This document shows positions 7,233 to 44,018 of a DNA stretch of 64,000 nucleotides, in pieces. The translations under genes were made by a program, and so were the position numbers. The DNA comes from Acidobacteriaceae bacterium (GTDB lineage: Bacteria; Acidobacteriota; Terriglobia; Terriglobales; Acidobacteriaceae): assembly GCA_003131315.1 (NCBI GenBank), contig PKUV01000140.1, positions 1 to 64,000 of the forward strand. The letters are read 5' to 3'. Positions within the stretch are counted from its first letter, which is position 1. Each line of letters starts with the position of its first letter. The notes below the pieces were generated by a model that had not been told where the DNA came from, made no database searches, and saw only the letters and a program-made list of their open reading frames with translations.

Positions 7233-7414
7233 GAGAACGCATCGAGACAGCAAATGATGAAGTCCGACGCTGAGGAAAACTATTCCAGCGTTTCCGTTCC
7301 AGCGTTCCGATATACTCGGTGGAACGACGCTCGCAAGCGCCGTGTTCGTTGTTGATTCCAGCCGGTTGATTCCAGCTGCATGACAAGGATTTTCGATCCT
7401 GCGGAGGCAGTCTG

Positions 7415-8266
7415 ATGAGTGCAGCTCCATCGCCGGTGTTCGAAGAAACGCCACAGCGCGTTTTTCCCCGGCACCCCATCAACGTACCCCTGGACTTGAT
7501 CGCATTGCGATCGGGGGTCCCCGAAAATTTACCTGGGCGCTGCACAGACCTCAGCGAAGCCGGCGTGGGTGCGGTTGTGGCCGGAGAGTTAGCCGCGGGC
7601 CAACAGGTGGCGGTCGAACTGCGGCTTCCGAATGTTGGCGTGCCCGTTCGGGCGCGCGCGCTGGTTCGCTATCAGTCACGACTCCGTTGCGGGCTTGAGT
7701 TCGTGGGGCTGTCGGTGGAGCAGCGGGAGATGATCCGGTATTGGGTTTACCGCTCCGCTTTAGATCCGGTGGATTTCAAAGAAGCGGCAGGCGGACCTGC
7801 AAAGACGGAAGCGCCGGTGGTCGTCGCGGAACTGGCTGCCAAGCCCAGGCACAGAATTCGCATCGGGCGCCGTGGATTTTATGTGCTGTTCGCTTGCCTG
7901 CTGGTGCTGACTGGTCTGGGATGGTGGCAGTGGCAGAGGTCCTGGAACGAACTGGAAAAGCGGGCGCCGGTTGGGGAGTCGGGGTTGCGAGTCTCTCCCG
8001 AAACCATGGAGAAGCGGATTGTAACGAAGTTGGAGCCGGTTTATCCGGAGGCTGCGCGGAAGGCAGGGATGCAGGGATTGGTGGTGCTGGATGCGGTGAT
8101 TGCGCCGGATGGCAATGTGAAACGCTTGCGGCCTGTGTCTGGGCCCGATCTGCTGGTGCAGTCGGCGACGGAGGCCGTGCAGTCCTGGAAATTTGAGCCG
8201 TACCTATCCAGCGGCAAGGCGGTTGAGGTTGAAACCACGATTGCGGTCGAGTTCCGGCTGAATTGA
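7415..8266 (+). CDS. PilZ domain - transmembrane - TonB C-terminal domain protein
   Basis: RVFPR (RxxxR) and DLSEAG (DxSxxG) PilZ motifs, TM segment FYVLFACLLVLTGLGWW, TonB-C domain YPEAARKAGMQGLVVLDAVIAPDGNV...SWKFEPY. Confidence 0.85.
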   Translation: MSAAPSPVFEETPQRVFPRHPINVPLDLIALRSGVPENLPGRCTDLSEAGVGAVVAGELAAGQQVAVELRLPNVGVPVRARALVRYQSRLRCGLEFVGLSVEQREMIRYWVYRSALDPVDFKEAAGGPAKTEAPVVVAELAAKPRHRIRIGRRGFYVLFACLLVLTGLGWWQWQRSWNELEKRAPVGESGLRVSPETMEKRIVTKLEPVYPEAARKAGMQGLVVLDAVIAPDGNVKRLRPVSGPDLLVQSATEAVQSWKFEPYLSSGKAVEVETTIAVEFRLN

Positions 8267-8273
8267 CGCGGCG

Positions 8274-8828
8274 CTACTCGAATTTTTCAGCCTGCTGGAA
8301 AGGCACACCACGCTGGTCTTTTGCAGAGACGATCGCGGAGACGACCGGTTCGCCGTCGAGTTGCCACGCGATCTTCAACGCAGGATCATTCCACGCCACC
8401 GTGCGTTCGTGCTCGGGCGCATAAAAGTCCGTCGTTTTATAGAGGACATGGGCGGTCTGGGACATGACTCGGAAGCCGTGAGCAAATCCGCGCGGAATCC
8501 ATAAAATGTGTTTGTTGTCGCCGGAAAGTTTGAAGGATTCCCATTTTCCGAAGGTGGGAGAGGTGCGGCGGAGGTCGAGCGCGACATCAAGAATCTCGCC
8601 GGTGATGGCGCGAATGAGTTTTCCCTGGGGCTGGTAAATCTGGTAATGCAAGCCGCGGATGACATTTTTCTCGGAATAGGAATGATTGTCCTGTACGAAT
8701 GGCTCCGGAATGCCGAGCTCGGCAAACGTGCGCTGATTGTAGCTTTCCAGAAAGAAGCCGCGGTCGTCGCCGAACACACGCGGTTCGAGGAGCAGAAGTC
8801 CGGGGAGGCTGGTGGCGATTTTTTTCAT
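8274..8828 (-). CDS. rfbC: dTDP-4-dehydrorhamnose 3,5-epimerase
   Basis: 184 aa; PRVFGDDRGFFLESYNQRTF, QDNHSYSEKNVIRGLHYQ, IPRGFAHGF. Confidence 0.97.
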   Translation of the reverse strand: MKKIATSLPGLLLLEPRVFGDDRGFFLESYNQRTFAELGIPEPFVQDNHSYSEKNVIRGLHYQIYQPQGKLIRAITGEILDVALDLRRTSPTFGKWESFKLSGDNKHILWIPRGFAHGFRVMSQTAHVLYKTTDFYAPEHERTVAWNDPALKIAWQLDGEPVVSAIVSAKDQRGVPFQQAEKFE

Positions 8829-8911
8829 CGGACGATATTCATCGGCAGATCTTAATTGGACGATCTTAATCGGACTGTCTAAATCGGACGACCATGGAAA
8901 CTACTCCCAAA

Positions 8912-9811
8912 TTAGAAGACGCGTTCCCGCAGCAATTGCAGGAGGTAAGCGCCGTATCCGTTGTTGCGCATCGGCTGGGCCAGCGCTTCCAGTTGCGCGG
9001 CGGTGATGTAGCCGGAGCGATAGGCGATTTCCTCGGGGCATGCGACCATGAGGCCCTGGCGCTTCTGCAGGGTCTGAATGAATAAAGAGGCTTCCATTAA
9101 GGCTTCGTGCGTGCCCGTGTCGAGCCAGGCCGTGCCTCGGCCCATCACGCAGACGTTGAGTTGATTGCGCTCGAGATACACGCGATTGACGTCGGTGATT
9201 TCAAGTTCGCCGCGGTTCGAAGGCTTGAGACTCGCGGCAATTTCGACGACCTGCCGATCGTAAAAATAAAGTCCGGTGACGGCGTAACGGGATTTGGGCT
9301 GCTTCGGCTTCTCTTCAATGCTAAGCGCCTTCCCATGCGGATCGAACTCGACGACGCCGTAGCGCTCGGGGTCATTCACGGGGTACGCAAAAACGCGAGC
9401 GCCTTTGGGCTGGAGCGTAGCTGCGCGCAATTCCTTGACGAGGTCGTGTCCGTAGAAAATGTTGTCGCCGAGCACGAGCGCGCAACCGCCAGAGCCGATA
9501 AATTCCTTGCCGATCAGAAATGCCTGGGCAATGCCTTCGGGTTTCGGTTGAACCGCGTACTGGAAATGGACGCCGAACCGCGAGCCATCGCCAAGTAAAT
9601 GCTGAAAGCGGGGCAAATCCTCGGGGGTGGAGATGAGCAGAATGTCGCGGATGCCGGCCAGCATCAGCGTGGAGAGCGGGTAGTACACCATCGGTTTGTC
9701 GTACACCGGCAGCAGGCTTTTGGCGATACCGTGGGTGACGGGATAGAGGCGCGTGCCCGATCCTCCCGCCAGAATGATGCCTTTGTAATTCGGTGGCGCG
9801 GTTTTGCTCAT
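8912..9811 (-). CDS. rfbA: Glucose-1-phosphate thymidylyltransferase
   Basis: 299 aa; [45 protein letters not shown]. Confidence 0.98.
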
Positions 9812-9838
9812 GTCGAGTTTCAGTCTCAGCTTTCCGTC

Positions 9839-10912
9839 TCAACGCTCAGTGGCGTAATGTTTCGCCATCCATTGACGATAGCTGCCGCTGGTGACATCAC
9901 GGACCCAGTCTTCGTGTTCAAGATACCAGCGGACGGTCTTGCGTATGCCGCTCTCAAACGTCTCCAGCGGGCGCCAGTGTAGTTCGCGCTCGATTTTGCG
10001 CGTGTCCATCGCGTAGCGACGGTCGTGGCCGGGGCGGTCTTTGACGAAGGAGACGAGCTTGCTGTGTGGAACGGCGGGGTCGTTCGGGCGCAGCTCGTCC
10101 AGCAGTCTGCAAATGGCTCCGATAATTTCCAGGTTCTTTTTTTCGCTTTGCCCACCGATGTTGTAGGTTTCTCCGACGCGGCCGTTTGAGAGCACGGTGC
10201 GAATGGCGCGGCAGTGGTCCTCGACGTAGAGCCAGTCGCGAACGTTCTTGCCGTCGCCATAAACCGGGAGCGGCTTGCCGGCGCACGCATTCAGGATCAT
10301 CAGCGGGATCAGTTTTTCGGGAAACTGGTGGGGTCCGTAATTATTGGAGCAGTTGGTGGTTAGAGCGGGAAGGCCATAGGTATGGCGATAGGCGCGGACC
10401 AGATGATCGGAAGCCGCTTTGGACGCGGAGTACGGGCTGTTGGGCGCGTAGGGGGTGGTCTCGCTGAAGGCCGGGTCGTTGGGGCCGAGCGATCCGTAGA
10501 CTTCATCGGTGGAGACGTGCAGGAAACGGAACGATGCGCGATCGGGTTCCGGAAGCGCCGACCAGTAGGCTCGCGCTTCTTCGAGCAGGCTGAACGTGCC
10601 GTTGACGTTGGTGCGGACGAAATCATCGGGGCCGTGGATGGAGCGGTCAACGTGGCTCTCGGCGGCGAAGTGAACGATGGCACGCGGTTGTTCGCTCCGC
10701 AGCAAGTTTCGCAATAGCTCGCGATCGCCGATGTCGCCCTGCCCGAAGCAATAGCGCGGATGGGCTTCGACGGCACGCAGATTGTTGAGATTGCCCGCAT
10801 ACGTCAGCTTGTCGAGATTCAGGATGCGCGCGCGTTCAGAGGCAATCCATTGCAGAATGAAGTTCGAGCCAATGAAGCCAGCGCCACCGGTGACGAGGAT
10901 GAGATCTTCCAT
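9839..10912 (-). CDS. rfbB: dTDP-glucose 4,6-dehydratase
   Basis: 357 aa; [12 protein letters not shown] Rossmann motif, [37 protein letters not shown]. Confidence 0.98.
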
Positions 10913-11006: not shown

Positions 11007-11555
11007 TCAGGCGGGTACGGTCTGGCTGGGGGCGACAGCTTCGGTGTCGAAGACCGTCGCCAGGCCATGAATTACAGACGCCAGGCGCACCGCCGCGAGG
11101 ATCGATTCCTCCGACATGCCTTTGTTGCGGAGAACCTGCTCGTGAGAATCGACGCAGGCTCCGCAGCCATTGATCGCCGAGACGGCCGTACACCAGAGTT
11201 CGAAATCGACTGGATCGATGCCGTGGGTGCGCAAAACGTTCATGCGCAGGCGGGCTGGCAGAGTGGCGTACTTTGGGTTCTTTGCCAGGTACTGGAAGCG
11301 GTAATAGATATTGTTCATGCCCATGACGGCGGCGGCGCCCTTGGCCGCTTCCAGAGCTTGCGGCGACAGGTGCGAAGCCGCTTCCGCGAGCACGGTCTGA
11401 AGGACTTGCGGGTTGCGGGACGCGATGGCGGATGCGGCCATGGTGCCCCAGATCTGCTGCTCGTTCAGTTCCTGCTGTTGCAGCAGCGTCGACAAGTTCA
11501 GTTTTAAATCTTTGGCGTACGCGGGCACGGTATCGAGAAGTTCATTCAGGGTCAT
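11007..11555 (-). CDS. ahpD: Alkylhydroperoxidase AhpD-family (carboxymuconolactone decarboxylase fold) protein
   Basis: 182 aa; CGACVDSHEQVLRNKGMSEESILAAVRLASVIH redox CxxC/His motif; next to ahpC. Confidence 0.9.
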   Translation of the reverse strand: MTLNELLDTVPAYAKDLKLNLSTLLQQQELNEQQIWGTMAASAIASRNPQVLQTVLAEAASHLSPQALEAAKGAAAVMGMNNIYYRFQYLAKNPKYATLPARLRMNVLRTHGIDPVDFELWCTAVSAINGCGACVDSHEQVLRNKGMSEESILAAVRLASVIHGLATVFDTEAVAPSQTVPA

Positions 11556-11579
11556 AGGGTACTCACATTTAGTTGGTCA

Positions 11580-11743
11580 CACTTAGGGAATCTCTGATTA
11601 AGTTCGTTTCGGGATAGCTTTGGGTAGGGCACGGCTTCAGCCGTGCCGTTAGGGCCCGCCAAACAAGCGGCTTTAGCCGCTGAGGCCCACTTTCGCAAAG
11701 CACCCCAACTCGCCAACGAACACTTAATCAGACCTTCCTTAGG
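11580..11743. repeat. MITE-like palindromic element between ahpD and ahpC
   Basis: Imperfect terminal inverted repeat: CTTAGGGAATCTCTGATTAAG-TTCG (left) versus reverse complement of CGAACACTTAATCAGACCTTCCTTAGG (right); internal hairpins CACGGC-TTCA-GCCGTG (11630-11645) and GCGGC-TTTA-GCCGC (11667-11680). Confidence 0.7.
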
Positions 11744-11786
11744 AGTCCGCGGTGAATGGTCGTGCACGAGCTACACCACTCATGAA

Positions 11787-11860
11787 TTGTCATCCTGAGC
11801 GAAGCGAAGGACCTGCTGTTCGCCGCGACAGCAGATCCTTCGCTTCGCTCAGGATGACAA
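11787..11860. repeat. Long hairpin of the GTCATCCTGAGCGAAGCGAAGGA repeat family
   Basis: TTGTCATCCTGAGCGAAGCGAAGGACCTGCTGT (11787-11819) and its reverse complement with one mismatch (11828-11860); a single-arm copy is at 2299-2324. Confidence 0.9.
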
Positions 11861-11871
11861 AAGTTTGCAAA

Positions 11872-12411
11872 TTACACGACGAGTGTCGGTTCGCCCTTCT
11901 TCCAGTTGCAGGGGCAGAGTTCGTCGGTCTGCAACGCATCGAGCACGCGCAGAACTTCCTGCGGATTCCGTCCGACGGAGAGGTCGGTCACCATCACGAA
12001 ACGGATGATCCCCTCCGGGTCGACGATGAAGGTGGCACGCTGAGCAACGCCGGCTTTAGGATCAAGAATGCCAAGCGCTTCCGAGAGATCGCGTTTGATG
12101 TCCGCCAGCATGGGGAACGGCAGGTTGTGCAGGTCTTCGTGGTGAACGCGCCAGGCGCGGTGCACGAACTCGGAGTCGGTGCTGCCGCCGAGGATTTGTG
12201 TGTCGCGGTCCAGGAATTCCTTGTTCAGCTTGCCGAAAGCTGCGATTTCCGTGGGGCAAACGAAGGTGAAATCCTTGGGCCAGAAGAAATAAACCTTCCA
12301 CTTGCCGGAGTAGTCGAGGTTGGTGATAGTTTTGAACGCTTTGTCGCTATTGTCGGTGCTGACGGTAGCCGTCAGCGAGTATGAGGGGAATTGTTCACCT
12401 ACTGCTAGCAT
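11872..12411 (-). CDS. ahpC: Alkyl hydroperoxide reductase C-like 2-Cys peroxiredoxin
   Basis: 179 aa; FFWPKDFTFVCPTEIAAFGKLNKEF, typical peroxidatic Cys motif. Confidence 0.93.
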   Translation of the reverse strand: MLAVGEQFPSYSLTATVSTDNSDKAFKTITNLDYSGKWKVYFFWPKDFTFVCPTEIAAFGKLNKEFLDRDTQILGGSTDSEFVHRAWRVHHEDLHNLPFPMLADIKRDLSEALGILDPKAGVAQRATFIVDPEGIIRFVMVTDLSVGRNPQEVLRVLDALQTDELCPCNWKKGEPTLVV

Positions 12412-12804: not shown

Positions 12805-15249
12805 CTACCGGACTGCAGAAGTGCGGATCTGGATCTGCTCACTCGGCGTGTGCTCCCTCGGCATGTGCTCGCTCGGGCTCCAGCCCAGCACGTTGTAATA
12901 GGCCGTTTCGATCGATCGGGCGATTTCGGGCCAGAGATATTGGCTCTGGATACGTTCGCGTCCCCGAACGGTGGACTGACGGCGAAGTTCGGGATTGTGG
13001 ACGAGTACGTCGAGCATGCGCTCAAGATCTGCCTGGTCGCCGCGCCGGAAGGTGAAACCGGCGCCCTCGACCACTTCATTATTTTCCGGAATATCGCTGG
13101 TCAGCACGCAGACACCGGCGGCCATGGCATCGAGAAGAGCCAGGGACAGGCCCTCCAGTTCAGACGGCAGCACGAACAGAGCGGCATTGGAGAGAAGCTC
13201 TTCGAGATCGCTTCCCGAGACCCAGGGAAGGAAACGGATCTGGTCGGATTCGTGGCTGCGCAAGCTCTTGACGTAGGAATCGGAGTGACTCGAGCCTCCG
13301 GCGAGGACGAGTTTCATGCTGGTGTGGAGGGCTTCGAAGGCATTGATAAGGAGATGGCAGTTTTTTTCCGGTGAAAACCTGCCTAAGAAAAGGACGTAGT
13401 TGTCCGGGAGGAGATCCCACTCGATCAGTTGCCGGGGGAGGCGCCGGGGCGCTAGCGTGGCTCCGTTCGGGACGTAGATAGTATCGCGCTTGTACTGTTG
13501 GCGGTAGTGCTGCTGCAGGGTGCGCGAGACGACCATGGTGGCATCGGGCGAGGAAACCGCAGCAGCTTCTCCCCAGCGCAGTACGCGCGACGCGATCCGG
13601 CCCCACTTACCGCGCTGCCAGTCGAGACCCTGAACGGTGACGACGGTCTTCTTACCGGCAAGCCGCGGAAGAAAAGAAAACAACGCCGGTCCCAGGCAGT
13701 GGTAATGGACGACATCGTAGTCCGACGTCATGGCATCCACTGTGCTCAACAGAGTATGGACGACAGTTTCCAGATGCTTGGAGCGGATGGTCGGCAACCG
13801 CCGCACCCGCATGCCGTTGTGCGTGTCCATGGGAGGAGTGAAATAGCTGCGGCAATATACGGTAACTTCGTGCCCCAGGCGGGCCAGTTCGTGGCCAGCC
13901 TGCTCGTAGTAGGATTCGATGCCGCTGTACTTGGAGACCACGCCGCGACCCCCGATGAACGCGACACGGACGCTGCGGCGTGGGCGTGGGGGCTCAGGCG
14001 CGGCGGGGAAGGAAAGAAGCTTCTTAGGGAATGTGAGCCGGTAGTAGAGTTCGAGCAGCTTCTCCACGTGTTGATCGGGGTCGTGGTTGGCTTTCACGCG
14101 ACTGCGAGCGGCGGCGCCCATCTTCTCGATCAGATCGGGGCGGTCAAACAGAAATCCGATGGAATGAGCGAACTGTTCGCGGTCCCCGTCGGAATAAAGC
14201 AGGCCGGTGACGCCATGTTGGACGAGTTCGCGGCGCGAACCCAGATCGGAGGCGATGACGGGCCGTCCCCAGGCATTGGATTCCAGAATGGATTTCCCCA
14301 AGGTCTCGTAGGCGTGGGACGGAAACACGGAGAAGCTGCAACCGGCGATGAGTTTCTGGAGTTTCTCGCCATGGACCATGCCGGCGAACAGGACTTGGTT
14401 CAAGTTCAATTCTTGTGCCAGCGCCTCGAGTCGGGGACGCTCGGGACCGTCTCCCGCGATGACGAGAGGAATGTGTGGTAGCCGCACCATGGCGCGCAAG
14501 AGCTCATAGACGCCTTTCTCTGGAGAGAGCCGGCCGAAGTAGAGCAGGTATCCTTCATCGGTGGTGAGGTGTTCGTCGGGGGGCAGCGCCTGGAAGTGGG
14601 GCAGGACTTCGATGCGTTGCGCAGGGAAACCGCTGGCGATCAACTTGTTGCGCACGAATTCGCTGGGAGCCAGGAACATGTCCACGCAGCGTTCGTAAGT
14701 TCGCAACCATTTGTGCAGGTATGCTTCGGCGGCAAGGACCACCGCGCTGGAACGCGGTCCGGTATAGCAACCTTTCGTAGCGGCGTGGTGGAAAGCACCG
14801 TGACTGCAGAGTTCGCAAGGGTGAGCATCGGCGACAAAATTGTAGGTTGGGCACAAAATCTTGAAATCGTTCAGGTGGTAGAGCACGGGGATCCCCTGGT
14901 GCTTTAGTTCCCAGAGAATCGAGGGCGACAAGTGGTGGTAGATTCCGCGAACGTGCGCCAGATCGGGTGAAAAATCAGCCAGGCAACTGCGCATAGCGCG
15001 CCGGGCCGATGGTGAATAGATGGCGTGCGCTGCCATCTTAACCTTCTTCAGAAAACCGGCGTTTGGATCCTTGAAGTCAAGATGCGGAATGCGATAACTG
15101 CGGCCTGTAAAAGCGGGAGTACGGCCGTGGTCCATACTGAACAGAGCGGTTTCCTGGCCGCGCTGATCCATCTGGTGGATGAGGTCGAAGAGGTACGCTT
15201 CAGTGCCGCTAAACGGATAGTCGTACTTGTTGCAATACAGGATGCGCAT
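12805..15249 (-). CDS. Fused GT4-GT4 glycosyltransferase (two tandem GT-B glycosyltransferase domains)
   Basis: First GT from MRILYCNKYDYPFSGTEAYLFDL...LLYFGRLSPEKGVYELL; second from RVAFIGGRGVVSKYSGIESYYEQAG...VLFLGRFSPEKNCHLLINAFE. Track ORF begins at 15294; internal ATG at 15249 is the likely start. Confidence 0.88.
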   Translation of the reverse strand: MRILYCNKYDYPFSGTEAYLFDLIHQMDQRGQETALFSMDHGRTPAFTGRSYRIPHLDFKDPNAGFLKKVKMAAHAIYSPSARRAMRSCLADFSPDLAHVRGIYHHLSPSILWELKHQGIPVLYHLNDFKILCPTYNFVADAHPCELCSHGAFHHAATKGCYTGPRSSAVVLAAEAYLHKWLRTYERCVDMFLAPSEFVRNKLIASGFPAQRIEVLPHFQALPPDEHLTTDEGYLLYFGRLSPEKGVYELLRAMVRLPHIPLVIAGDGPERPRLEALAQELNLNQVLFAGMVHGEKLQKLIAGCSFSVFPSHAYETLGKSILESNAWGRPVIASDLGSRRELVQHGVTGLLYSDGDREQFAHSIGFLFDRPDLIEKMGAAARSRVKANHDPDQHVEKLLELYYRLTFPKKLLSFPAAPEPPRPRRSVRVAFIGGRGVVSKYSGIESYYEQAGHELARLGHEVTVYCRSYFTPPMDTHNGMRVRRLPTIRSKHLETVVHTLLSTVDAMTSDYDVVHYHCLGPALFSFLPRLAGKKTVVTVQGLDWQRGKWGRIASRVLRWGEAAAVSSPDATMVVSRTLQQHYRQQYKRDTIYVPNGATLAPRRLPRQLIEWDLLPDNYVLFLGRFSPEKNCHLLINAFEALHTSMKLVLAGGSSHSDSYVKSLRSHESDQIRFLPWVSGSDLEELLSNAALFVLPSELEGLSLALLDAMAAGVCVLTSDIPENNEVVEGAGFTFRRGDQADLERMLDVLVHNPELRRQSTVRGRERIQSQYLWPEIARSIETAYYNVLGWSPSEHMPREHTPSEQIQIRTSAVR

Positions 15250-16471
15250 GGTCACCGTCCGATTGGGGAATGCGGGCCAGGAGTTGCTCCGCAAAAGCGC
15301 GTAGATTTCGCTGGCGGTTATAGGAAGCGGCGATGCTGGCCGCGGCCGCGCGCTGGATTCCGGCCAGAGAAGCTTTGTGGCCCTGAATCCAACTGACGGC
15401 GCTGACGAAATCGGGTAAAGAGCCAGGTTGATAAAGAAATCCGGTGCGCTGGTGCTCGACCAGTTCGGGAATCCCGGTAATGGCAGGAGCCAGCACGAGT
15501 TTTTCGTGAGCCATGGCCTCCATCAGGACCACCGGGATTCCTTCGCTCTTGCTGGTCATGACGACCAGGTCGGCGTAGCGGTAATAGCCGGGAAGGTCGG
15601 TGCGAGGCACTTGACCGATCAGGTAAACACGCCCTTGAAGCCCCAATGCCACAATCTGGTTTTCGAGAGCTGTGCGCTCCGGTCCTTCGCCGACGATCCA
15701 GCAGATGAAGTCAAGACCTTGGTCGCGAAGCGCGGCACAGGCCTGGACGAGAAAGCGATAGTCCTTCACCCGATGCAGGCGTCCGACGGAGAGGAGACAG
15801 AACCGCCGGTGGTCCGCCTCGGCTGCGCTGGCGGGTGTGGGCCAGGAAAGCACGCGATCGACCCCAAGACGTTGCACGATGATTTTCTCAGCGGGCGTGG
15901 AAGGGTAGTTGCGGAGAATGTACTGGCGGTTGAAGTCGGAGACCGTTACGCAGAACTGGCAAGCCCGCAGCTTGGCCGAGAGCAGATCCGCGCGCTGCAG
16001 CAGATCGGAGCCGTGCAGGGTGAAGCTGAAGCCGATTCCGAGCAGACGGGCAGCGGCTAAGGCCATCCATGAGGCGAAGTATCCGTGATGAGCGTGGATG
16101 TGCTCGACATTGAGTGGCGCCAGTTGTTCTGCCAGCGCGGCACCCATTACCGTGTGGCCTAGCGCGCGAATGCGGCGGATCGGGGAAGCTCCGCGCTTCC
16201 ACATCAGGGGGCGCAACAGCTGCCAGAGGTTGTGACGATCGGAGGCGAGCCGGCGCACTGCCCGTACAAGCTCATCGTCGGAGAGCGGCTGAAAAAAACG
16301 CGTCTCTTTCCAGAAAGCACGCTCCGCCAAGCTGAGATCATTCGGCGAGACGCGTTTGCCGCTGCAGCAGATCACTTGCGCCCCGCGGCGGCGCAGTTCT
16401 GTAATTTCATCGATCACGTAAGGTTCGAGGGAAGAAGGAAACTCGTTGGCGACGTAGGCGATGGTGGTCAT
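15209..16471 (-). CDS. GT4-family glycosyltransferase
   Basis: 420 aa; HIHAHHGYFASWMALAAARLLGIGFSFTLHGSDL, LLSVGRLHRVKDYRFLVQACAAL, SKSEGIPVVLMEAMAHEKLVLAPAITGIPELVE. Confidence 0.93.
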   Translation of the reverse strand: MTTIAYVANEFPSSLEPYVIDEITELRRRGAQVICCSGKRVSPNDLSLAERAFWKETRFFQPLSDDELVRAVRRLASDRHNLWQLLRPLMWKRGASPIRRIRALGHTVMGAALAEQLAPLNVEHIHAHHGYFASWMALAAARLLGIGFSFTLHGSDLLQRADLLSAKLRACQFCVTVSDFNRQYILRNYPSTPAEKIIVQRLGVDRVLSWPTPASAAEADHRRFCLLSVGRLHRVKDYRFLVQACAALRDQGLDFICWIVGEGPERTALENQIVALGLQGRVYLIGQVPRTDLPGYYRYADLVVMTSKSEGIPVVLMEAMAHEKLVLAPAITGIPELVEHQRTGFLYQPGSLPDFVSAVSWIQGHKASLAGIQRAAAASIAASYNRQRNLRAFAEQLLARIPQSDGDHAHPVLQQVRLSV

Positions 16472-17754
16472 GCGACGGACTCCTCGGACGCGCAGAGCAT
16501 CCCGGCAACGGTGAACACGAGTCCAATGACAAACTGGTACGCCATGTCGACGAAGAAAGCGTTGAAGAGGTAAACGCTGAGCAAGATGGGCCAGACTTTG
16601 CGCAGAGAAGCGACGGGGCCGGACTCACCGAGCGGACCGTGCCAGGAAAGGCGGAAGAGGTTGAAGAAAAGAATGCCGTAGAGGGCCAACCCCGGCACAC
16701 CGAACTCAACCAGCAAGGCGAGGTAAGTGTTGTGCACGTAGAAGGTGCGGAGGTGGTAGCCCTCCATACGGCGGGCAAGCTCGGCGTACATACCTCCGGC
16801 AGCCCAACCGGTGAACGGCCGCTCCTGAAACATTGCCCAGCCGGCGTCGTACACGGCCAGGCGCGCGTCCACCGGACCGCGTTCTCCGGTGCGGTCCCAA
16901 AGAGCAGTCTTCAGCGAATGGTTGCCGAGGCCGATTGCCAGGCCAAGCAGTAGGCTCGCAACCGCCAACAAGGCGCACACCGCTCGCAGCCGGCGTTCGA
17001 CCAGGCGGAATCCGAGAACGATGGTGGAGACGGCGAACGAGATCCAAACGGCGCGCGTCATGGTGGCGAGCACGGCCAGGGGCAGAACCAGCCACAGCAA
17101 CCTGACGACGGTTTTGCGCTTTTGCGAGAGCGCGATGACAAGAATCCCAAGGATGTTCAACGAAACGCCGTTGGCCACTGCCTGGAGAAATGGGCCGCGA
17201 GCGCGGTCCACATGAAAACCAAGGCTTTCGTCAAGAATGAAACGCGGAAAGATGAGGGAGCGGGCGTCCGCGAGGAAGGCAATGGCAATAAACACGAGGT
17301 AGGCGAGCGCAAAGATGACGAAGATTTCGAAGTGTCTTCGTTGCGATGCGCCTCGGAAGATCAGCACAGCGAGGTGAAACAGCGCAAAGGGGACGATGAA
17401 CTTGCTGGCGATAATGCTCCAGGTTTGTGCGTCGAACGGCTCCCGAAGCGCACGGAACACGGCGAGCGCCATGAGACTGAGCATAGGCAAACTGAGTCCG
17501 GCAAAGAATGGGAGCTTATCGCGGAGCGCCATAGTACGCAGCGCAACGAAGAAGACCAGGATGCCGAACGCGATTCGGTCGGCGTAAAAAGAAAAAAGGT
17601 CTGGTGGACGAAACAGGAAAACGATCATCGCGGCCACGTAAAGGATCGAGGGAAAAGCCAATCCCAGGTGAAGGGGGCGAAGCAGCAGACCGGCAGCGCG
17701 CCAAAGCGGGTTGTCGTCACTATCCCGGATTAAAGCTAGGGCGCGGCTGCTCAT
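16468..17754 (-). CDS. O-antigen ligase/polymerase (Wzy-like) multi-TM protein
   Basis: Multi-TM; FTGWAAGGMYAELARRMEGYHLRTFYVHNTYLALLVEFGVPGL typical of Wzy_C/O-antigen ligase. Start refined from 17859 to 17754. Confidence 0.85.
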   Translation of the reverse strand: MSSRALALIRDSDDNPLWRAAGLLLRPLHLGLAFPSILYVAAMIVFLFRPPDLFSFYADRIAFGILVFFVALRTMALRDKLPFFAGLSLPMLSLMALAVFRALREPFDAQTWSIIASKFIVPFALFHLAVLIFRGASQRRHFEIFVIFALAYLVFIAIAFLADARSLIFPRFILDESLGFHVDRARGPFLQAVANGVSLNILGILVIALSQKRKTVVRLLWLVLPLAVLATMTRAVWISFAVSTIVLGFRLVERRLRAVCALLAVASLLLGLAIGLGNHSLKTALWDRTGERGPVDARLAVYDAGWAMFQERPFTGWAAGGMYAELARRMEGYHLRTFYVHNTYLALLVEFGVPGLALYGILFFNLFRLSWHGPLGESGPVASLRKVWPILLSVYLFNAFFVDMAYQFVIGLVFTVAGMLCASEESVA

Positions 17755-17764
17755 GGCGAGAGTC

Positions 17765-19318
17765 TCAGGCTCCTTCCGGCGCGAACAGCACGCGAACTGT
17801 GCTGGCGAGGATGCGCAGGTCCAGGCGCAGACTCCAGTTCTCGATGTAGGTGAGATCAAGGTGCATGTTGAGTTCGAACGACGGACAGCCGCGCGCCGTA
17901 ATCTGCCACAGACCCGTGATTCCGGGTTTTACGTCAAGGCGCCGGAACTGGTGAAGTTCGTAATGGTTGACCTCGTCCACGGGATGAGGCCGCGGTCCAA
18001 CCAGGCTCATCTCCCCGCGCAGCACGTTCCAGAGCTGAGGCAGTTCGTCGAGGCTGTAGCGGCGAATGATGTGGCCGATGCGGGTGATTCTGGGGTCGTC
18101 GTCGATTTTGAAGATGGGGCCCTGTCTCTGGTTGCGGGCGCGCAAGTCTTCCTTGAGGTGTGCGGCGTCGGTCACCATGGAGCGAAACTTATAGCAAAGG
18201 AAGCGGCGGCCTTTGGCGCCGGTGCGTTCCGCGGAGTAGACGATTGGACCGGGCGAGTCCAGCCGGATGAGCAGGGCCACGATCGCCATTAGAGGACTGG
18301 CCAACACCAGACCGAACGTCGCACCGGTGACATCCAGCAAACGCTTCAGAAATAAGGCGGCGCTGGGTAATGGTTCGCGATGCAGGGTGACGACCGGCAC
18401 CTCTCCGATGTGATCGATGCCTGAGTCTGGCCACGGACCCGGGGGCAGATCGGGCACGGCACGAATGTCCAGGTGGTTACGGAACGCGGCTTCGGCAGCT
18501 TCTCGCGTCTGGGCTGGCTGACCGGGGAGAGCGAGGATGACTTCATCGATGAATTCGGCGCGAGCGAGCCAGTCCAAGTCTGCGATTCGCCCCAATACCG
18601 CCGGGGAAAGAGGCTGGTCGTCATCCACGAAGCCGCAGACGGTTGCGCGTTGGAGAGGATCATTGCGCAGTGCCCGGGCGATGGAGCGAGCGACCGGCCC
18701 CCCGCCAATGATGAGGATCTTGCGCGATTCTGTTTCGCGGCGCCGCCGCTTCCATTCAATCTGCCTCAACCGGCGTAACAGCGCGAGGCCGGCCAGGCTG
18801 CTGGCAAATATTCTGGAGGCGGCGAGAGGACGCATTCCATCCCACCGGGCGATGAAGACCAGTCCGATCGCGAACAGGGTTGACCTCGCCAGTGCTGGGA
18901 CGATCCCGGCGGGAGACGGATCCCCAGCGCGTTTGTAGATCCCCTCACAGAAGCTAAAGAGCGTTACCAGAACAGCAAAAATCGGCAGATAAGCCCACGG
19001 TAGGCCCCAAGCGGGAGAGAACAGCGATAACGCGCTGCACACTACCACGAGAACGATCAAGTCGGCTGCCACCAGCTCACAAAGCGTGAATCGATCAATG
19101 GTAGGTTGCGGTAGATGTTGTTGAGTTAGCGTTCGCGCCTGGGTGCGTCTCGTGGTGGTTTGGTCGACCGCGTTGACTGAACGTGTGGGGGTGGCGTTGC
19201 CCGTCGGCGCGAATCTGGGAGGCGGCATTGCAGGTGTCCCAAGAATCATGCGGGCATACTGCGACGGGGAATCTTTGGGTCCGATGTCCCATAGCCGGTT
19301 TGTGGTCAATTCGCCCAT
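17765..19318 (-). CDS. Polyprenyl-phosphate sugar-1-phosphate transferase (priming glycosyltransferase)
   Basis: Bacterial sugar transferase C-terminus: KRLLDVTGATFGLVLASPLMAIVALLIRLDSPGPIVYSAERTGAKGRRFLCYKFRSM...LRGEMSLVGPRPHP...KPGITGLWQ; N-terminal TM and CoA-binding-like region. Start refined to 19318. Confidence 0.93.
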   Translation of the reverse strand: MGELTTNRLWDIGPKDSPSQYARMILGTPAMPPPRFAPTGNATPTRSVNAVDQTTTRRTQARTLTQQHLPQPTIDRFTLCELVAADLIVLVVVCSALSLFSPAWGLPWAYLPIFAVLVTLFSFCEGIYKRAGDPSPAGIVPALARSTLFAIGLVFIARWDGMRPLAASRIFASSLAGLALLRRLRQIEWKRRRRETESRKILIIGGGPVARSIARALRNDPLQRATVCGFVDDDQPLSPAVLGRIADLDWLARAEFIDEVILALPGQPAQTREAAEAAFRNHLDIRAVPDLPPGPWPDSGIDHIGEVPVVTLHREPLPSAALFLKRLLDVTGATFGLVLASPLMAIVALLIRLDSPGPIVYSAERTGAKGRRFLCYKFRSMVTDAAHLKEDLRARNQRQGPIFKIDDDPRITRIGHIIRRYSLDELPQLWNVLRGEMSLVGPRPHPVDEVNHYELHQFRRLDVKPGITGLWQITARGCPSFELNMHLDLTYIENWSLRLDLRILASTVRVLFAPEGA

Positions 19319-19323
19319 AAGAT

Positions 19324-20016
19324 TCACAGACTCCGGTACAGGCCTTGCGGCACAGGAAAACGACGTTCCGCGAGGACGGTCCCGAGCAGAGGAACTTGCG
19401 CCTTGCTTAGCTGGTCCTTGATTTGAGCGGCGACGAGGCGTCTTGTTTTGTTGGCGGTCAGCACGAGCACCAGACCGTCGCAGGTTTGGCCAATGCTCGC
19501 CGTGAGCCAGGAGACCGGAGCACACCACAGAATGGAAAAGTCGAACTCCGTCGTGAGTTCGCGGAGCCGCGATAAGTTCCGATCGGTGAGCCGCTGCTCG
19601 CAGGCGTCCGGGAGCCAGCTCTGGCGAGGAACCATCCAGAGACGCGGTGCGATTGGCCAGGTGGCCTCCGTACGGTTGGGGGAGGGAATCTGCAGTTGGT
19701 TTTGGAGAGGGATCGAGTCCGGGCGGGCGTCGATCAGCCCGACGTCGTACCTGTCTTCTTCAGCCAGCGCTCTGGCGACCTCGATGCACAGTGTCGCAGT
19801 TGCAGTCGATGCTTCGACCGGGGCAAATCCGACGTGCCGAACCGGCCTCGATTCATGCCGAAAGAAAAGTTGCTGAACCAGCGCATGGATCTGATCCTCG
19901 TGAACCGAAGCCGTCGGAGAAACTGCTTTGCGCTGGACTGGCTCGCGTATTGGAGTTACGCGCGGCGGTTCAGCGGCAGATGGCGTTTCGACAAGAAGCT
20001 CACGGAGAGTGCTCAC
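19324..20016 (-). CDS. CpsD/BY-kinase-like ATPase with degenerate P-loop
   Basis: Follows wzz with 4-nt overlap; VGFAPVEASTATATLCIEVARALA in place of GEGKST-type Walker A, then VGLIDARPD. Confidence 0.65.
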   Translation of the reverse strand: MSTLRELLVETPSAAEPPRVTPIREPVQRKAVSPTASVHEDQIHALVQQLFFRHESRPVRHVGFAPVEASTATATLCIEVARALAEEDRYDVGLIDARPDSIPLQNQLQIPSPNRTEATWPIAPRLWMVPRQSWLPDACEQRLTDRNLSRLRELTTEFDFSILWCAPVSWLTASIGQTCDGLVLVLTANKTRRLVAAQIKDQLSKAQVPLLGTVLAERRFPVPQGLYRSL

Positions 20017-21533
20017 TGGACCACCACCTTGGGCCGACCGATCCGAGAAATAGAAGGACGCGGAACCGCGGGCTTAGGCGCCGGCAACCAAGCCAGCACC
20101 GGTACTTCCAGCAGGCCGTAAGCTTCGTCGGGAGTGCGAATCGTCGAGTCAAAGTACTCTGTCGTAAAGGCGATGCCGACGCTGAACGCCATGGCCAGTC
20201 CGAAAGCGAGCAAGAAATAAAGGAGCACGGAGTGCGTGGGCAGGGCCGGGGCTACGGGCGATTCCACGATGGCCACATTGAGGATGCGACGCTCGTCGAG
20301 CGCGTCGCCGATGCGCGCTTCCTCGCGCTTGCGAAGGTAGAGCAGGTAGTTGTCTTCCTCGGCCTTGGCGGTGCGCATCAGATCCTGTTGATCCACGGAG
20401 GCGGATTGCATCTGCGTGGCAAACGTTCGCAGGGATGCGACCTGGGTGGAAGCATCGGATTGCCGTGCCCGCAAGCCGTCCCACTGCACCTGGGCTTTCT
20501 CCATTTCCATGCGGGCCCACTCGTAGTTGGGATCCTTGTCGGTAGTTTCGTCGCGCACCGGGGTGAGCGCTTCGGCGGCAATCGACGCGCGAGTTTCCCC
20601 GATTTCCTGTTCCACTTCTTGCACCAGCCGGTAGGACGGTTCAAAGCGGCTGAGAAGCTCAGTGCGCTTGAGCAGGAGCTCCAGCAGGTGTGTTTTCATC
20701 TTTTCGAGAACCTCCGGATTATCCGCCCAGCGATTGAGAGTGACCGACCGAGAGGGAAACGACTTGAGCTGTTCGCGCAGCGACGCAATCCGGCGCTCGG
20801 TCTCGACACGATCCTGGTCGATCTGGCGGTACGCCGCACCCGCCTCGCCTAACTTCTGCAGCGCGATATCGCGTTCCAGAGCCGCCGAAGCCACGCCCCG
20901 AGCGCGAGTAAAGTGCACGAGCTCGGCTTCGGACTGATGCAGTCTCTTTTCGTATTCCGCGGTTTGCTGGTCGAAAAACTGGATCTCCCCCGGGGGCCGC
21001 TGGAGATTCGTGTGCCTCCGCACGTAGAGGGTAGAAAGTGCTGAGAGTATGCGGGCAGCTCGCTCCGGATTGGTGTCCTTGTAACTGACCTGGATGAGGT
21101 TCGACTTCTTTAGCGCTTCGACATCCAAACGGCGCGCGAGCTTGCGAACGGCACGTTCGATCTCGGCTGGGCGCTCGAAATCCCGGGTGCCCGCAGGAAC
21201 AAGTCCCGCCATTTTCACAACTTGCTTCAGGAGATCTTCGTCGCGCAGGAGTTCGACTTCGGAATTGAGTTCTCCTTCGGTAATGTCGGGACGGGTGAAA
21301 TCCATGGCGCTGGCGGGCTGAGAAGAGACGATGGGGTCAAAGCGGCCGCGGCGCAGCAGAACCTTGAAGTGCGATTCATATCGCGCCGAGAAGACGCCGA
21401 AGAGCATCGTCGCCAGCAATACGAACCCAAAAGAAGCAGCGACGAGTCGCGGACGTCGGAACAGCGTGGCCGCAAGATCGCGGGGCGTGGGGGAAAGAGG
21501 GGTGTGCGAGTTTCCGTTCAATTCCGCGGACAT
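20013..21533 (-). CDS. Wzz/GumC-type polysaccharide chain-length determinant
   Basis: N-terminal and C-terminal TM flanking a coiled coil, FTTEYFDSTIRTPDEAYGLLEVPVLAWLP. Start refined to 21533. Confidence 0.88.
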   Translation of the reverse strand: MSAELNGNSHTPLSPTPRDLAATLFRRPRLVAASFGFVLLATMLFGVFSARYESHFKVLLRRGRFDPIVSSQPASAMDFTRPDITEGELNSEVELLRDEDLLKQVVKMAGLVPAGTRDFERPAEIERAVRKLARRLDVEALKKSNLIQVSYKDTNPERAARILSALSTLYVRRHTNLQRPPGEIQFFDQQTAEYEKRLHQSEAELVHFTRARGVASAALERDIALQKLGEAGAAYRQIDQDRVETERRIASLREQLKSFPSRSVTLNRWADNPEVLEKMKTHLLELLLKRTELLSRFEPSYRLVQEVEQEIGETRASIAAEALTPVRDETTDKDPNYEWARMEMEKAQVQWDGLRARQSDASTQVASLRTFATQMQSASVDQQDLMRTAKAEEDNYLLYLRKREEARIGDALDERRILNVAIVESPVAPALPTHSVLLYFLLAFGLAMAFSVGIAFTTEYFDSTIRTPDEAYGLLEVPVLAWLPAPKPAVPRPSISRIGRPKVVVQ

Positions 21534-21626
21534 GGATCGTACAGCACGCCGATCACACCCGGCGGGCTTTATGGGAACTCGCCAGATTTTGAAGACGCAA
21601 TCAGTGAATGCTGCCACTCCTTTCCG

Positions 21627-22451
21627 CTAAAACTGCAATGGGTTCATGTACCAACTCATGGAGTTGGTCGGAACATACTTGCGAATTTTTGAAATCCGGC
21701 TCTGTGGAACAAAGATAAAATCGCCGGCCTGAAGGTGCAGATCTTCGCGAAGATCGCGAGAATCCAGCATCTTCTTTAGGTCAATCACGTGGGATTCGGC
21801 GACGTACGCGGAAATCCGGCGAAACACAACAACCTGCGAATGACGGGCCTGCTGCGTGAAGCCGCCGGCAATCGCCACGGCTTCGTTTACGGTCAGATCC
21901 CCTCGCAGCTCATACTTTCCTGGCCGCGCCACCTCACCCGAAGCGAGGAAGTAGGGCTTGTCAAAATCTTTTAAGGTCACGGTGACCTCGGGCTCGTGCA
22001 GAAAGCCGCGGTAGGCATAGGCAACCGCCTGCTGCATCTGGGGGATCGTGAGTCCCTCCGCGAACAGCGTGCCTGCACCTTTCAGGGCCACGAAGCCATC
22101 GGGCTGCACGGTCAAGGTCTGATTGAAGTCGGGAGAAAAAGTGAAATTCACGTCCACGGTGTCCGATTTTGAAAGCCGGTAAAGCGGATGGCGTTCCCCT
22201 CCGAATGCAGGATCTCCCATGCCACCCGCTCTTCCGGGTTGTGTGATCGCTCCGTGGGTGGAACCGTCCGTGCCGGACCGGTCCTGGCTCTGCGAGTTCT
22301 CCGCCGCCGCGAGCTTGCCGGTTGGCGGAGCAGAGGACCGAGGCGCCGAAGCAGGCGACGGTACAGTCTCCTGAGCGGATGTGACCACGGCGAACTGCAG
22401 GATGAGCATACCCACAGCCCCCAAAACGACGTGTTTAGCAAATACATTCAT
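21627..22451 (-). CDS. Polysaccharide biosynthesis/export protein (Wza-like, SLBB)
   Basis: Signal peptide; YRLSKSDTVDVNFTFSPDFNQTLTVQPDGFVALKGAGTLFAEGLTIPQMQQAV; GEVARPGKYELRGDLTVNEAVAIAGGFT. Confidence 0.9.
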   Translation of the reverse strand: MNVFAKHVVLGAVGMLILQFAVVTSAQETVPSPASAPRSSAPPTGKLAAAENSQSQDRSGTDGSTHGAITQPGRAGGMGDPAFGGERHPLYRLSKSDTVDVNFTFSPDFNQTLTVQPDGFVALKGAGTLFAEGLTIPQMQQAVAYAYRGFLHEPEVTVTLKDFDKPYFLASGEVARPGKYELRGDLTVNEAVAIAGGFTQQARHSQVVVFRRISAYVAESHVIDLKKMLDSRDLREDLHLQAGDFIFVPQSRISKIRKYVPTNSMSWYMNPLQF

Positions 22452-22801
22452 CTCCGGACTCTCACCGTTGCTCTGAACGGCGAACTAAGCAACTCGGGCG
22501 TTTGAGTTGTTAGCACGAAGGTATCGTTGGGTCCCGAGCACAACAAGACTTGGAAAGTACTGTCCACCGCGGTATAGGGCACGTTCCAGCCATCAAAAAG
22601 GTGATGAAATCAGCAGCCGGGCCGCCAGGGCTGGGTTTCCGGCTACGGGCGCAGGCAGGGTGGGAGAGCGCTGCTACGAAAGCTGTGCACAAGAGTAGCC
22701 CTGCGAAAGTAGGCATGGAGGGCGGAATTCATCACCAACGGGGTGTGACGAGGCCTACATCCGGTCCGTGCACTTTTGGGCATGATGGTAGCGTGAAAAC
22801 C

Positions 22802-23524
22802 ATGCGCTCCGCGAAGCAGTCCACTGGAACCCGGCCGGTCGCAACCGAAGCAGTGCAAGTCGTGGTCGCCGATTCGGGTCTCATTCAGTCTCAACTCTTG
22901 ACGCGGGCTTTGAAAAGCCGGCGGGACTTTCAGGTTTCCGCTGTCGCTTTGGAGACGTCTGCTCTCCACAACTTCATGCAATCGAATCACGCCGACGTGG
23001 TCTTGATTGCGGGCAACCAACTGCCGGATTTGAGCCTGCTGCGCTGGTTGCGAGTCTCGTATCCGAAGATCGCTCCCGTGCTGCTGGCCGAGAACGATGA
23101 CCGCGAACTGGTGGTGAATGCCTTGCGCGCCGGCGCGAAGGGCATTTTTCTTTTTACCCAAACTCCTTTCGCGATGCTCTGCAAGTGCATCCATTGCGTT
23201 TTCCGGGGAGAGGTTTGGATCAACAGCCAGCAGATGAATTACGTGCTGGATGCGTTGTCGGAGGTGCCCACGCTGCGTGTGGTCAACTCAACTGGGAGGT
23301 CTTTGTTGACGCCTCGCGAGGAGCAGGTAGTCGCGCTCGTAGCCGACGGATTGACCAACCGCGGAGTCGCCGTCGAATTGGGGCTCAGCGAACACACGAT
23401 CAAGAAATATCTGCTGCGCATCTTCGATAAGCTGGGGATTTCGAGCCGGGTGGAACTGGTCCTCTACGCTGTGTCGCACGGCGAGAATCGTCCGGCGGAA
23501 TGGATGCCGACCAGCAACGCCTGA
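22802..23524 (+). CDS. LuxR/NarL-family regulator with degenerate receiver domain
   Basis: HTH LTPREEQVVALVADGLTNRGVAVELGLSEHTIKKYLLRIFDKLGISSRVEL; REC-like N-terminus with HADVVLIAGNQLPD. In-frame GTG at 22793 or ATG at 22802. Confidence 0.85.
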   Translation: MRSAKQSTGTRPVATEAVQVVVADSGLIQSQLLTRALKSRRDFQVSAVALETSALHNFMQSNHADVVLIAGNQLPDLSLLRWLRVSYPKIAPVLLAENDDRELVVNALRAGAKGIFLFTQTPFAMLCKCIHCVFRGEVWINSQQMNYVLDALSEVPTLRVVNSTGRSLLTPREEQVVALVADGLTNRGVAVELGLSEHTIKKYLLRIFDKLGISSRVELVLYAVSHGENRPAEWMPTSNA

Positions 23525-23979
23525 ACGCAGGAGGAAAGGCCGACGTACAATGGCAAAATACGGAAAGGCGAGGAGATCGGTCGGTGACGAGTTCCGGGTC
23601 GGGCGTAACACGCCGATGGACGGTGATCGCTTCAGGGCTGCTCCTTCTGGCGCTGGCGCTGGTCGTGATCTATACAGGGCCGAATGCTTTTTTCAGTCCC
23701 GTTGCTTTGGTAGTGGTGGCCGCGATCGGGCTGGCCGCGCTGCTGCTCCAGGTTCGGTTTCGCCAGGATCTTCCGAGTATTCATTCTCCTCTCTGGCTTA
23801 ACGTCCTCGGCATTCTCTGTGCCATGGTATCGCTGTTCGCGGATTACCTCCGGATGACCCGCCGTATGCTGGATCTGGTGGCGTTTGCCGCCGTGGTCTG
23901 CTTCGGCATCAGCGGAGCGCTCATCCTGCACGCACTGCGGCGGCGGGTACGAACACCTCAATCGAATGGGACCGAGTAG
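23500..23979 (+). CDS. Small multi-TM hypothetical protein
   Basis: Hydrophobic segments WTVIASGLLLLALALVVIYTG, PVALVVVAAIGLAALLLQV, VAFAAVVCFGISGALILHAL; start uncertain because it overlaps the preceding gene. Confidence 0.55.
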   Translation: MDADQQRLNAGGKADVQWQNTERRGDRSVTSSGSGVTRRWTVIASGLLLLALALVVIYTGPNAFFSPVALVVVAAIGLAALLLQVRFRQDLPSIHSPLWLNVLGILCAMVSLFADYLRMTRRMLDLVAFAAVVCFGISGALILHALRRRVRTPQSNGTE

Positions 23980-41618: not shown

Positions 41619-44018
41619 ATGGCCCTTCCGGTTTCACGGCTGCGCCGCTGGTTCGCCTTGGGCGCGATTTTGATGATTGCGATGGTCGCGGGCATGTATT
41701 TCTACGCGCGATGGCGCGTGCGCAAGGCCGTCCACGACATTCCGGCGAAAATCGGCCTCGACATTCAGCAGACCGCCGAGGGCTTTTCCGTCTCCAAGTC
41801 CGTAGAAGGCCGCACTCTGTTTACGGTGAGCGCATCCAAGGCGGTTCAGTTCAAAGGGGGTGGACATGCGGAGTTGCACAACGTCAAGATCGTCATCTAC
41901 GGCAAGGATGCCGGCCGCTTCGACCAGATTACGGGGGATGATTTCGAGTACGATCCCGCGTCGGGCAATGTGAGCGCGAAGGGCACGGTGCTGATCGACC
42001 TGGAAGCGAATCCCGAGGGGATGCGGCATTCCGACCAGACGCCTCCGGAGCAAACCAGAGACCCGATTCATCTTGAAACCAACGGGCTGGTCTTCAACAA
42101 GAATACGGGGGACGCTTCCGCCACCGGGAAGGTGGTGTTTCAAACGCCGCAGGCGTCCGGTTCAGCTGTGGGCATTGAATATGTGGCCAAGACGGGCACG
42201 ATGAACTTGCTGTCGGCGGTCGTGGTGACTGTCAGCAGGCCGCAGGCGGTTCGTCTGAACGCAGATCGTGGCCTGATTTCGAAGCAGCCCCGCCAGGTCG
42301 TGCTCACCGGCGTGCGCCTGACCCGGGAGCAGCAGCAACTACAGTCCGACCACGCGACGTTCTTCCTGCGCGAGGACAACACGGTGGACCGCATTCTTGC
42401 CGAGGGCGATGTGCGGAGCGAGTTTCATGGCCGGTCATCCTCCAACTCGAAAACGTCCAACTCGGAAGCGCGCGCGCGGTCCGATCGCGCCGAACTGTTG
42501 CTGACCGGAACGCGGAATCTGCTCACCACGGCCATTCTCACAGGCAACGTGCAACTCGCGACCCAGGGAGCGCAGACCCAAGGAACGCAACCCCAGGGAG
42601 CGCAGCCCGCCGAGGCTGCCGCCGGACGCGTGACGCTGCACTTTGCCGGGCAGCAGATGCTGGAGACCGTTCATGCCGAAGACGGCGTGCGGCTGACGCA
42701 GAGGAAGAGCCAGAGCGGGACTGGAGCGGTGGCGATGTCATCGGCGTCGGCGTCGGCACTGTCGCCGTCGCGGGCGGGGGGAGACGCGCAAAATCAAGAT
42801 ATCGAGATGACGGCCCCGGTGATGGACTTCATCGTGAAAGGCGGCCGTCAGCTGGAGCGTGCCGTGACGAGCGGACCACCGCGGATCGTGATCACGCAGC
42901 CGGGCGCGAATCAGAAGACGGTGGTTACCGCCGCCAAGTTCACTGCGAAATTCACGGAGAAGAATCGCCTGGCCACGCTGCATGGAGAACCGGACGCGAA
43001 GATCGTTTCGAGTAAGATCGGCGCGCCAGGACAGCCCGATCGAGTATCGACCAGCCAGATGCTTGATGTCGTCTTCCGGCCAGAGGGCGGCGTCGCGTCG
43101 ATCACGCAGGCAGGTGCTGTGACCTACGTCGATGGCACACAAAAGGCTTGGGCGCAGCGTGGAGAGTACACGGCCGCCGATCAACTGTTGGTGCTGAGCG
43201 GGTCGCCTCGGGTGGTGGACAACGGCATGACGACGACGGCCCAGACGATTCGTATGAACCGGACGACCGGCGACGCCATCGCCGAGGGCAACGTCAAGAG
43301 CACGTACTCCGATCTAAAAGCGCAACCGGACGGCGGCATGCTCGCCTCCTCCGACCCGATCCACGTAAGCAGCCGCAGCATGACGGCACATCGTTCACCG
43401 GCGGTTGCGGTGTACACCGGCGATGCCCGGTTGTGGCAAAACGCGAACGTGGTGCAGGCTCCCACGCTTCAATTCGATCGCGACCACCGGTCGTTGGTAG
43501 CGCAAGGGGTAGCGGAGGGGGTGGCGCGGGGGACCTTGACTCAACCGGTTTCGACCGTGTTGGTGCAAGTGGACAAGAGCGGGAAGGCGACCCCAGTCAA
43601 CATCACATCAGCGCGTCTGAACTACGCCGATGCGGAGCGGAGAATTTTCCTGGATGGCGGGGTGACCGCGAAGGGGGCCGACACTACGCTGACGGGACAG
43701 CAGATGACGGTATTTCTGCTGGCGCGGAGCCAGTCGCAAGCAGGGACGGGCCCGGGAATGCCGGGGCAAGTGGAGCGGATCGTGGCCCAAGACAGGGTTG
43801 TGATCACGCAGCCGACGCGGCATGCGACCGGTGACCGGTTGGTGTACACGGCAGCCGAGGACAAGTTCGTCCTGACTGGCGGAACTCCCAGCATTTTTGA
43901 TGCCGAACGGGGCAAGATTACGGGCGATTCGTTGACTTTCTACAGACACGATGATAGGGTGCTCGTAGAAGGTAAAGAAACGTCCCCGACCGTCACCAGG
44001 ACGCAAGTGGCACGATAA
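41619..44018 (+). CDS. Large LptC/LptA (OstA-like) LPS-transport periplasmic protein
   Basis: 799 aa; N-terminal TM anchor, repeated OstA-like segments (GDDFEYDPASGNVSAKGTVLIDL, VFNKNTGDASATGKVVF, RMNRTTGDAIAEGNVKSTYSDL, DRLVYTAAEDKFVLTGGTPSIFD); its stop immediately precedes the lptB ATG. Confidence 0.85.
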   Translation: MALPVSRLRRWFALGAILMIAMVAGMYFYARWRVRKAVHDIPAKIGLDIQQTAEGFSVSKSVEGRTLFTVSASKAVQFKGGGHAELHNVKIVIYGKDAGRFDQITGDDFEYDPASGNVSAKGTVLIDLEANPEGMRHSDQTPPEQTRDPIHLETNGLVFNKNTGDASATGKVVFQTPQASGSAVGIEYVAKTGTMNLLSAVVVTVSRPQAVRLNADRGLISKQPRQVVLTGVRLTREQQQLQSDHATFFLREDNTVDRILAEGDVRSEFHGRSSSNSKTSNSEARARSDRAELLLTGTRNLLTTAILTGNVQLATQGAQTQGTQPQGAQPAEAAAGRVTLHFAGQQMLETVHAEDGVRLTQRKSQSGTGAVAMSSASASALSPSRAGGDAQNQDIEMTAPVMDFIVKGGRQLERAVTSGPPRIVITQPGANQKTVVTAAKFTAKFTEKNRLATLHGEPDAKIVSSKIGAPGQPDRVSTSQMLDVVFRPEGGVASITQAGAVTYVDGTQKAWAQRGEYTAADQLLVLSGSPRVVDNGMTTTAQTIRMNRTTGDAIAEGNVKSTYSDLKAQPDGGMLASSDPIHVSSRSMTAHRSPAVAVYTGDARLWQNANVVQAPTLQFDRDHRSLVAQGVAEGVARGTLTQPVSTVLVQVDKSGKATPVNITSARLNYADAERRIFLDGGVTAKGADTTLTGQQMTVFLLARSQSQAGTGPGMPGQVERIVAQDRVVITQPTRHATGDRLVYTAAEDKFVLTGGTPSIFDAERGKITGDSLTFYRHDDRVLVEGKETSPTVTRTQVAR

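Follow-up and report, generated by a model that had tools for sequence, protein, structure and literature searches.

The window, a 64,000-nt stretch of Acidobacteriaceae DNA, encodes a genuine and conserved acidobacterial protein in which a PilZ domain, one transmembrane (TM) helix and a TonB C-terminal domain (TonB_C) are combined in a single chain (Table 1), and its neighbourhood of exopolysaccharide (EPS) genes suggests control of slime export rather than classical TonB energy transduction. The chain, proposed in the original prediction, is borne out by translation and by a Pfam search in which both domains exceeded their gathering cut-offs on one polypeptide (PF07238 PilZ, residues 14–112, 1.6e-10, 41.7 bits against a cut-off of 22.5; PF03544 TonB_C, residues 207–282, 3e-19). 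An AF2 model built on a 41-row alignment (a 20-row version gave a poor PilZ half) comprised a PilZ barrel, a helix at 152–183 and a TonB-type C-terminal domain; its mean pLDDT was 87.5, and with a pTM of 0.44 the placement of the domains relative to each other is uncertain. Comparison of this model with the PDB by Foldseek returned a PilZ fold and a TonB CTD fold. An assembly or frameshift chimera was rejected, as orthologues are syntenic in many genomes of the same genus, with polA on one side and EPS genes on the other.

Table 1. Features of the PilZ-TM-TonB_C gene and of the neighbouring EPS locus in the window
Feature	Position	Strand	Details and basis
Promoter-like element TTCCGaTATACT, -10-like TATACT	7305–7316	+	23 aligned orthologue upstream regions
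Shine-Dalgarno GGAGG inside conserved leader CTGCGGAGGCAGTC	7403–7407	+	Sequence and orthologue alignment
PilZ-TM-TonB_C protein	7415–8266	+	283 aa; translation without internal stops, Pfam, orthologues
PilZ domain, residues 14–112	7454–7750	+	Pfam, motif conservation, Foldseek
RxxxR	7457–7471	+	RVFPR = R15-R19
DxSxxG	7547–7564	+	DLSEAG = D45-G50
TM helix (~154–172), then conserved WWxWQ..W.ELE (170–181)	7874–7957	+	Hydropathy, AF2 helix 152–183
Short periplasmic tether, 29 aa, 2 Pro	7946–8032	+	TM-to-TonB_C spacing
TonB_C domain, residues 207–282	8033–8260	+	Pfam, TonB CTD structures by profile and fold
dTDP-rhamnose genes rfbC (8274–8828), rfbA (8912–9811), rfbB (9839–10912), near edge of EPS locus	8274–10912	-	Pfam, synteny
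EPS core: GT4 x2, GT4, Wzy-like, WbaP-like PGT, P-loop-like ORF, Wzz-like, Wza (Poly_export + SLBB)	12805–22451	-	Pfam
LuxR-type (GerE) regulator of EPS locus	22550–23524	+	Pfam; beside wza in other genera too
Small membrane protein, 159 aa, ~4 TM	23500–23979	+	Homologues adjoin the PilZ-TM-TonB_C gene convergently in other genera

The gene is present in 23 of 24 genomes of the same genus, the one without it being ~75% complete. Most of these place polA upstream and rml or EPS genes downstream; one (L044) has the gene without any neighbour from the window. Closely related pairs gave dN/dS values mostly of 0.05–0.22 for PilZ and 0.11–0.27 for TonB_C, with a relaxed cytoplasmic linker; both domains are thus under purifying selection. 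The gene is probably driven by a promoter of its own: a -10-like TTCCGnTATACT lies ~100 nt upstream of the ATG and is kept in nearly all orthologues, and across the 23 aligned upstream regions TTCCGnTATA(C/A)T is nearly invariant while the remaining spacer varies (one row reads TTCGATATACT). Around the gene no riboswitch or other known RNA matched Rfam at E values up to 1.

Full-length matches were confined to Acidobacteriaceae when class (399 genomes) and phylum (396 genomes) samples were searched with the 20-row alignment. Within the family, the 41-row alignment detected a full-length homologue in 34 of 200 genomes from 16 genera, one of the 34 matches (G797) covering residues 10–196 only; an apparent confinement to four genera was therefore a sampling effect. 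Some genomes hold a second, divergent full-length copy with ExGxxG (L136 486–1352; L135 1494–2369), which forms its own clade and shows no EPS linkage. In the literature searched, whose scope lay outside subscription journals and preprints, we found no paper on such a fusion.

Both ligand motifs named in the original prediction, RVFPR and DLSEAG, are present. The 23 same-genus sequences all have R15, R19, D45 and G50; position 47 is S in 22 of them and N in one. RxxxR is kept by every one of the 51 homologues compared. Outside the genus the second motif mostly reads (D/N)xGxxG or (D/N)xCxxG, with E for D in a few, and a few forms (L182, L186, L197 and L199) bear the S. The expectation of intact motifs in orthologues thus held through the genus (save one S to N) and mostly failed beyond it for DxSxxG. 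In Foldseek the top PDB match of the PilZ half was the Alg44 PilZ domain with c-di-GMP (4rt0, 1.6e-06), followed by other c-di-GMP-bound PilZ domains and cellulose synthase. Motifs alone settle neither binding nor non-binding, since PixB binds c-di-GMP despite an altered second motif and PlpA fails to bind it despite intact motifs (PMC8316039); on motifs and modelled fold together, gating by c-di-GMP is plausible. As the genome carries 15 GGDEF matches, c-di-GMP is made. Its PilZ matches are unusually many (30); these proteins share the PilZ fold, the nearest by sequence being short (e.g. L068 and L067), but none of the others has a TonB_C in the same frame. An EAL-HDOD protein at window positions 47668–48984 may be another c-di-GMP-related gene.

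Between PilZ and the membrane helix lie a variable linker and the basic stretch RIRIGRRG, followed by the hydrophobic FYVLFACLLVLTGLG and then WWQWQRSWNELE. W170, W173, W177, E179, L180 and E181 are invariant. Since RIRIGRRG stands just before the hydropathy peak at 154–170, in line with the positive-inside rule, and the AF2 helix spans 152–183, we infer an N-in/C-out topology; the proposed cytoplasmic PilZ and periplasmic TonB_C thereby gain support as a prediction. The C-terminal half fits the TonB CTD 6i97_D (TMt 0.84, rmsd 1.4). The usual Pro-rich TonB spacer is missing, as had been noted from the single gene, and the tether measures 28–42 residues in all 51 homologues compared. The genome has an unusually high 22 TonB_C matches, often behind long N-terminal regions. 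Its other TM-called TonB_C proteins mostly place ~98–378 residues with 12–37 Pro between TM and TonB_C, and two short ones have 58 and 72 residues there. No exbB or exbD was found among the annotated window neighbours, all four MotA/ExbB matches lying on other contigs; a tonB-exbB-exbD-exbD operon is located on another contig. The SxxxH-type motif for ExbB/ExbD coupling is absent from the TM helix and equally from the operonic TonB of the same genome, so its absence is not diagnostic.

The gene sits at the edge of the window's EPS locus, where it and rfbC are transcribed towards each other. The Wzz-like ORF had no direct Pfam match and was assigned via a homologous L132 ORF with a weak Wzz match; the 23500–23979 protein belongs to no confident Pfam family, and rmlD lies beyond it and the LuxR gene. 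AhpD-like and peroxiredoxin-like genes, named by reading, sit within the locus (11007–12411) and occur in some relatives and not in others. Elsewhere in the window (41619–44018), a 799-aa protein combines LptC-like and LptA/LptD_N-like parts in one chain.

The closeness to dTDP-rhamnose and EPS genes, already part of the original prediction, proved stronger across genera than claimed. EPS linkage was found in six genera (g1, g15, g335, g355, g360 and g363) with differing flanking genes. In g15, wza lies ~2–4 kb from the gene, with LuxR and, in most genomes, the small membrane protein between; g335 and g360 have the same gene order. In g363 and g355 the gene and that of the small protein converge, and rmlD-rfbC-rfbA-rfbB and glycosyltransferases come next. 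EPS genes were absent from the stretch read in g27, g40, g370 and g339, where the small protein is nonetheless near. On the homologue tree, EPS linkage requires 6 changes, a result compatible with a single origin of the linkage but not showing one.

The fusion gene is usually convergent with the homologue of the 23500–23979 protein. Among 26 genomes outside the genus, the two are less than 200 bp apart in 13, separated by 1.6–3.5 kb in 6 and on different contigs in another 6; one lacks the small protein. This protein occurs in 33 of 34 fusion-bearing versus 14 of 166 fusion-less genomes (Fisher 1.8e-25, a value that ignores shared descent). Since it usually still sits beside LuxR and EPS genes (LuxR-wza-wzz-wbaP) in the fusion-less genomes, it is part of the EPS locus and thereby connects the fusion with EPS. 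From this gene linkage we infer an EPS role for the PilZ-TM-TonB_C protein.

Two of the 23 same-genus orthologues, in G014 (L015/L138) and G008 (L023/L137), have mostly or wholly deleted TonB_C while keeping PilZ and TM (L138 833–1576 and L137 5980–6636). Their PilZ dN/dS values are 0.05–0.15. Both come from MAGs, and one, the weaker case, lies on a 3.1-kb contig; as the two cluster in the tree (98/83), they may represent one loss. TonB_C is kept in the other 21 orthologues and in other genera.

These observations bear on what the TonB_C domain does. The original prediction saw a possible c-di-GMP-gated energy transducer, which would amount to a gated TonB passing ExbB/ExbD energy on to a TonB-dependent transporter in the outer membrane. 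The protein does share with such TonBs (PF03544) the sequence and fold of the C-terminal domain, which is close to a FoxA-bound CTD, as well as the inner-membrane anchor and, given the predicted N-in/C-out topology, a periplasmic CTD; ExbB-type genes also exist in the genome. However, it carries PilZ ahead of the TM helix and has neither a long Pro-rich spacer nor exbB/exbD linkage. As the tether is 28–42 aa in every homologue, against ~100–380 aa with 12–37 Pro in the majority of the genome's other TM-TonB_C proteins, it has no plausible reach to outer-membrane TonB boxes; together with the separate tonB operon and the loss of TonB_C in two orthologues, this makes the gated transducer very improbable. 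With both the spacer test and the exb linkage test negative, we do not assign the protein to the energy-transducing TonBs. The two TonB_C-less orthologues, with PilZ and TM kept and the PilZ part constrained, rather favour a membrane-tethered PilZ that works in the cytoplasm, for example on a glycosyltransferase or the WbaP-like initiating transferase; TonB_C would then be a losable periplasmic or cell-wall anchor. An initiating transferase under the cytoplasmic control of a small regulator has been described (PMC12802240). Against this, TonB_C is retained under purifying selection by 21 of 23 genus orthologues as well as in other genera, which indicates that the domain normally matters, and we regard this alternative as rather unlikely.

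The PilZ fold might also be a scaffold unresponsive to c-di-GMP, as the G or C in place of S in most homologues outside the genus, and the occasional E for D, would suggest. Against this stand the invariant RxxxR, the full second motif, which the genus and a few further homologues retain, and the binding by PixB with its altered motif, so that we consider such a scaffold unlikely. Quite improbable, in our assessment, is an envelope coupler for polysaccharide export, in which TonB_C would engage the Wza/Wzz path and the binding of c-di-GMP, perhaps aided by energy of the ExbB/ExbD type, would open or drive that path; if true, it would mean that the second messenger directly controls Wzy-type EPS export from the periplasmic side.

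The explanation we prefer, and to which we give about an even chance of being right, is an Alg44-like membrane-anchored c-di-GMP receptor in which TonB_C replaces the periplasmic domain of Alg44 and which tunes EPS assembly or export. Alg44, the Pseudomonas alginate copolymerase subunit, shows the order PilZ, TM, periplasmic domain. It is a c-di-GMP-binding protein required for alginate polymerisation and needs this ligand for alginate synthesis; an N-terminal cytoplasmic PilZ, one TM helix, a periplasmic C-terminal domain and a polysaccharide context are shared with it (PMC3815931). The periplasmic part of Alg44 is a MexA-like/HlyD-like membrane fusion domain, whereas that of the acidobacterial protein is TonB_C, and the acidobacterial locus, in which no Alg8-type synthase was found, is of the Wzy type, unlike that of Alg44. 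As the periplasmic domain differs, we do not claim membership of the Alg44 family. In the Alg44-like mechanism, the cytoplasmic PilZ would bind c-di-GMP, as its motifs and fold suggest, and the single-pass protein would change state on binding. The short tether would keep the periplasmic TonB_C close to the inner membrane, where it may dock on some component of the EPS machinery in the periplasm or inner membrane; candidate partners, each of them a guess, are Wza, Wzz and the 23500–23979 protein. High c-di-GMP would then lead to more EPS assembly or export.

A TonB_C match thus need not imply energy transduction, although proteins of this kind tend to be annotated as TonB. If the Alg44-like explanation is true, the Acidobacteriota, which abound in soil and peat, would possess an Alg44-like receptor for a Wzy-type pathway, made by swapping in a TonB C-terminal domain.
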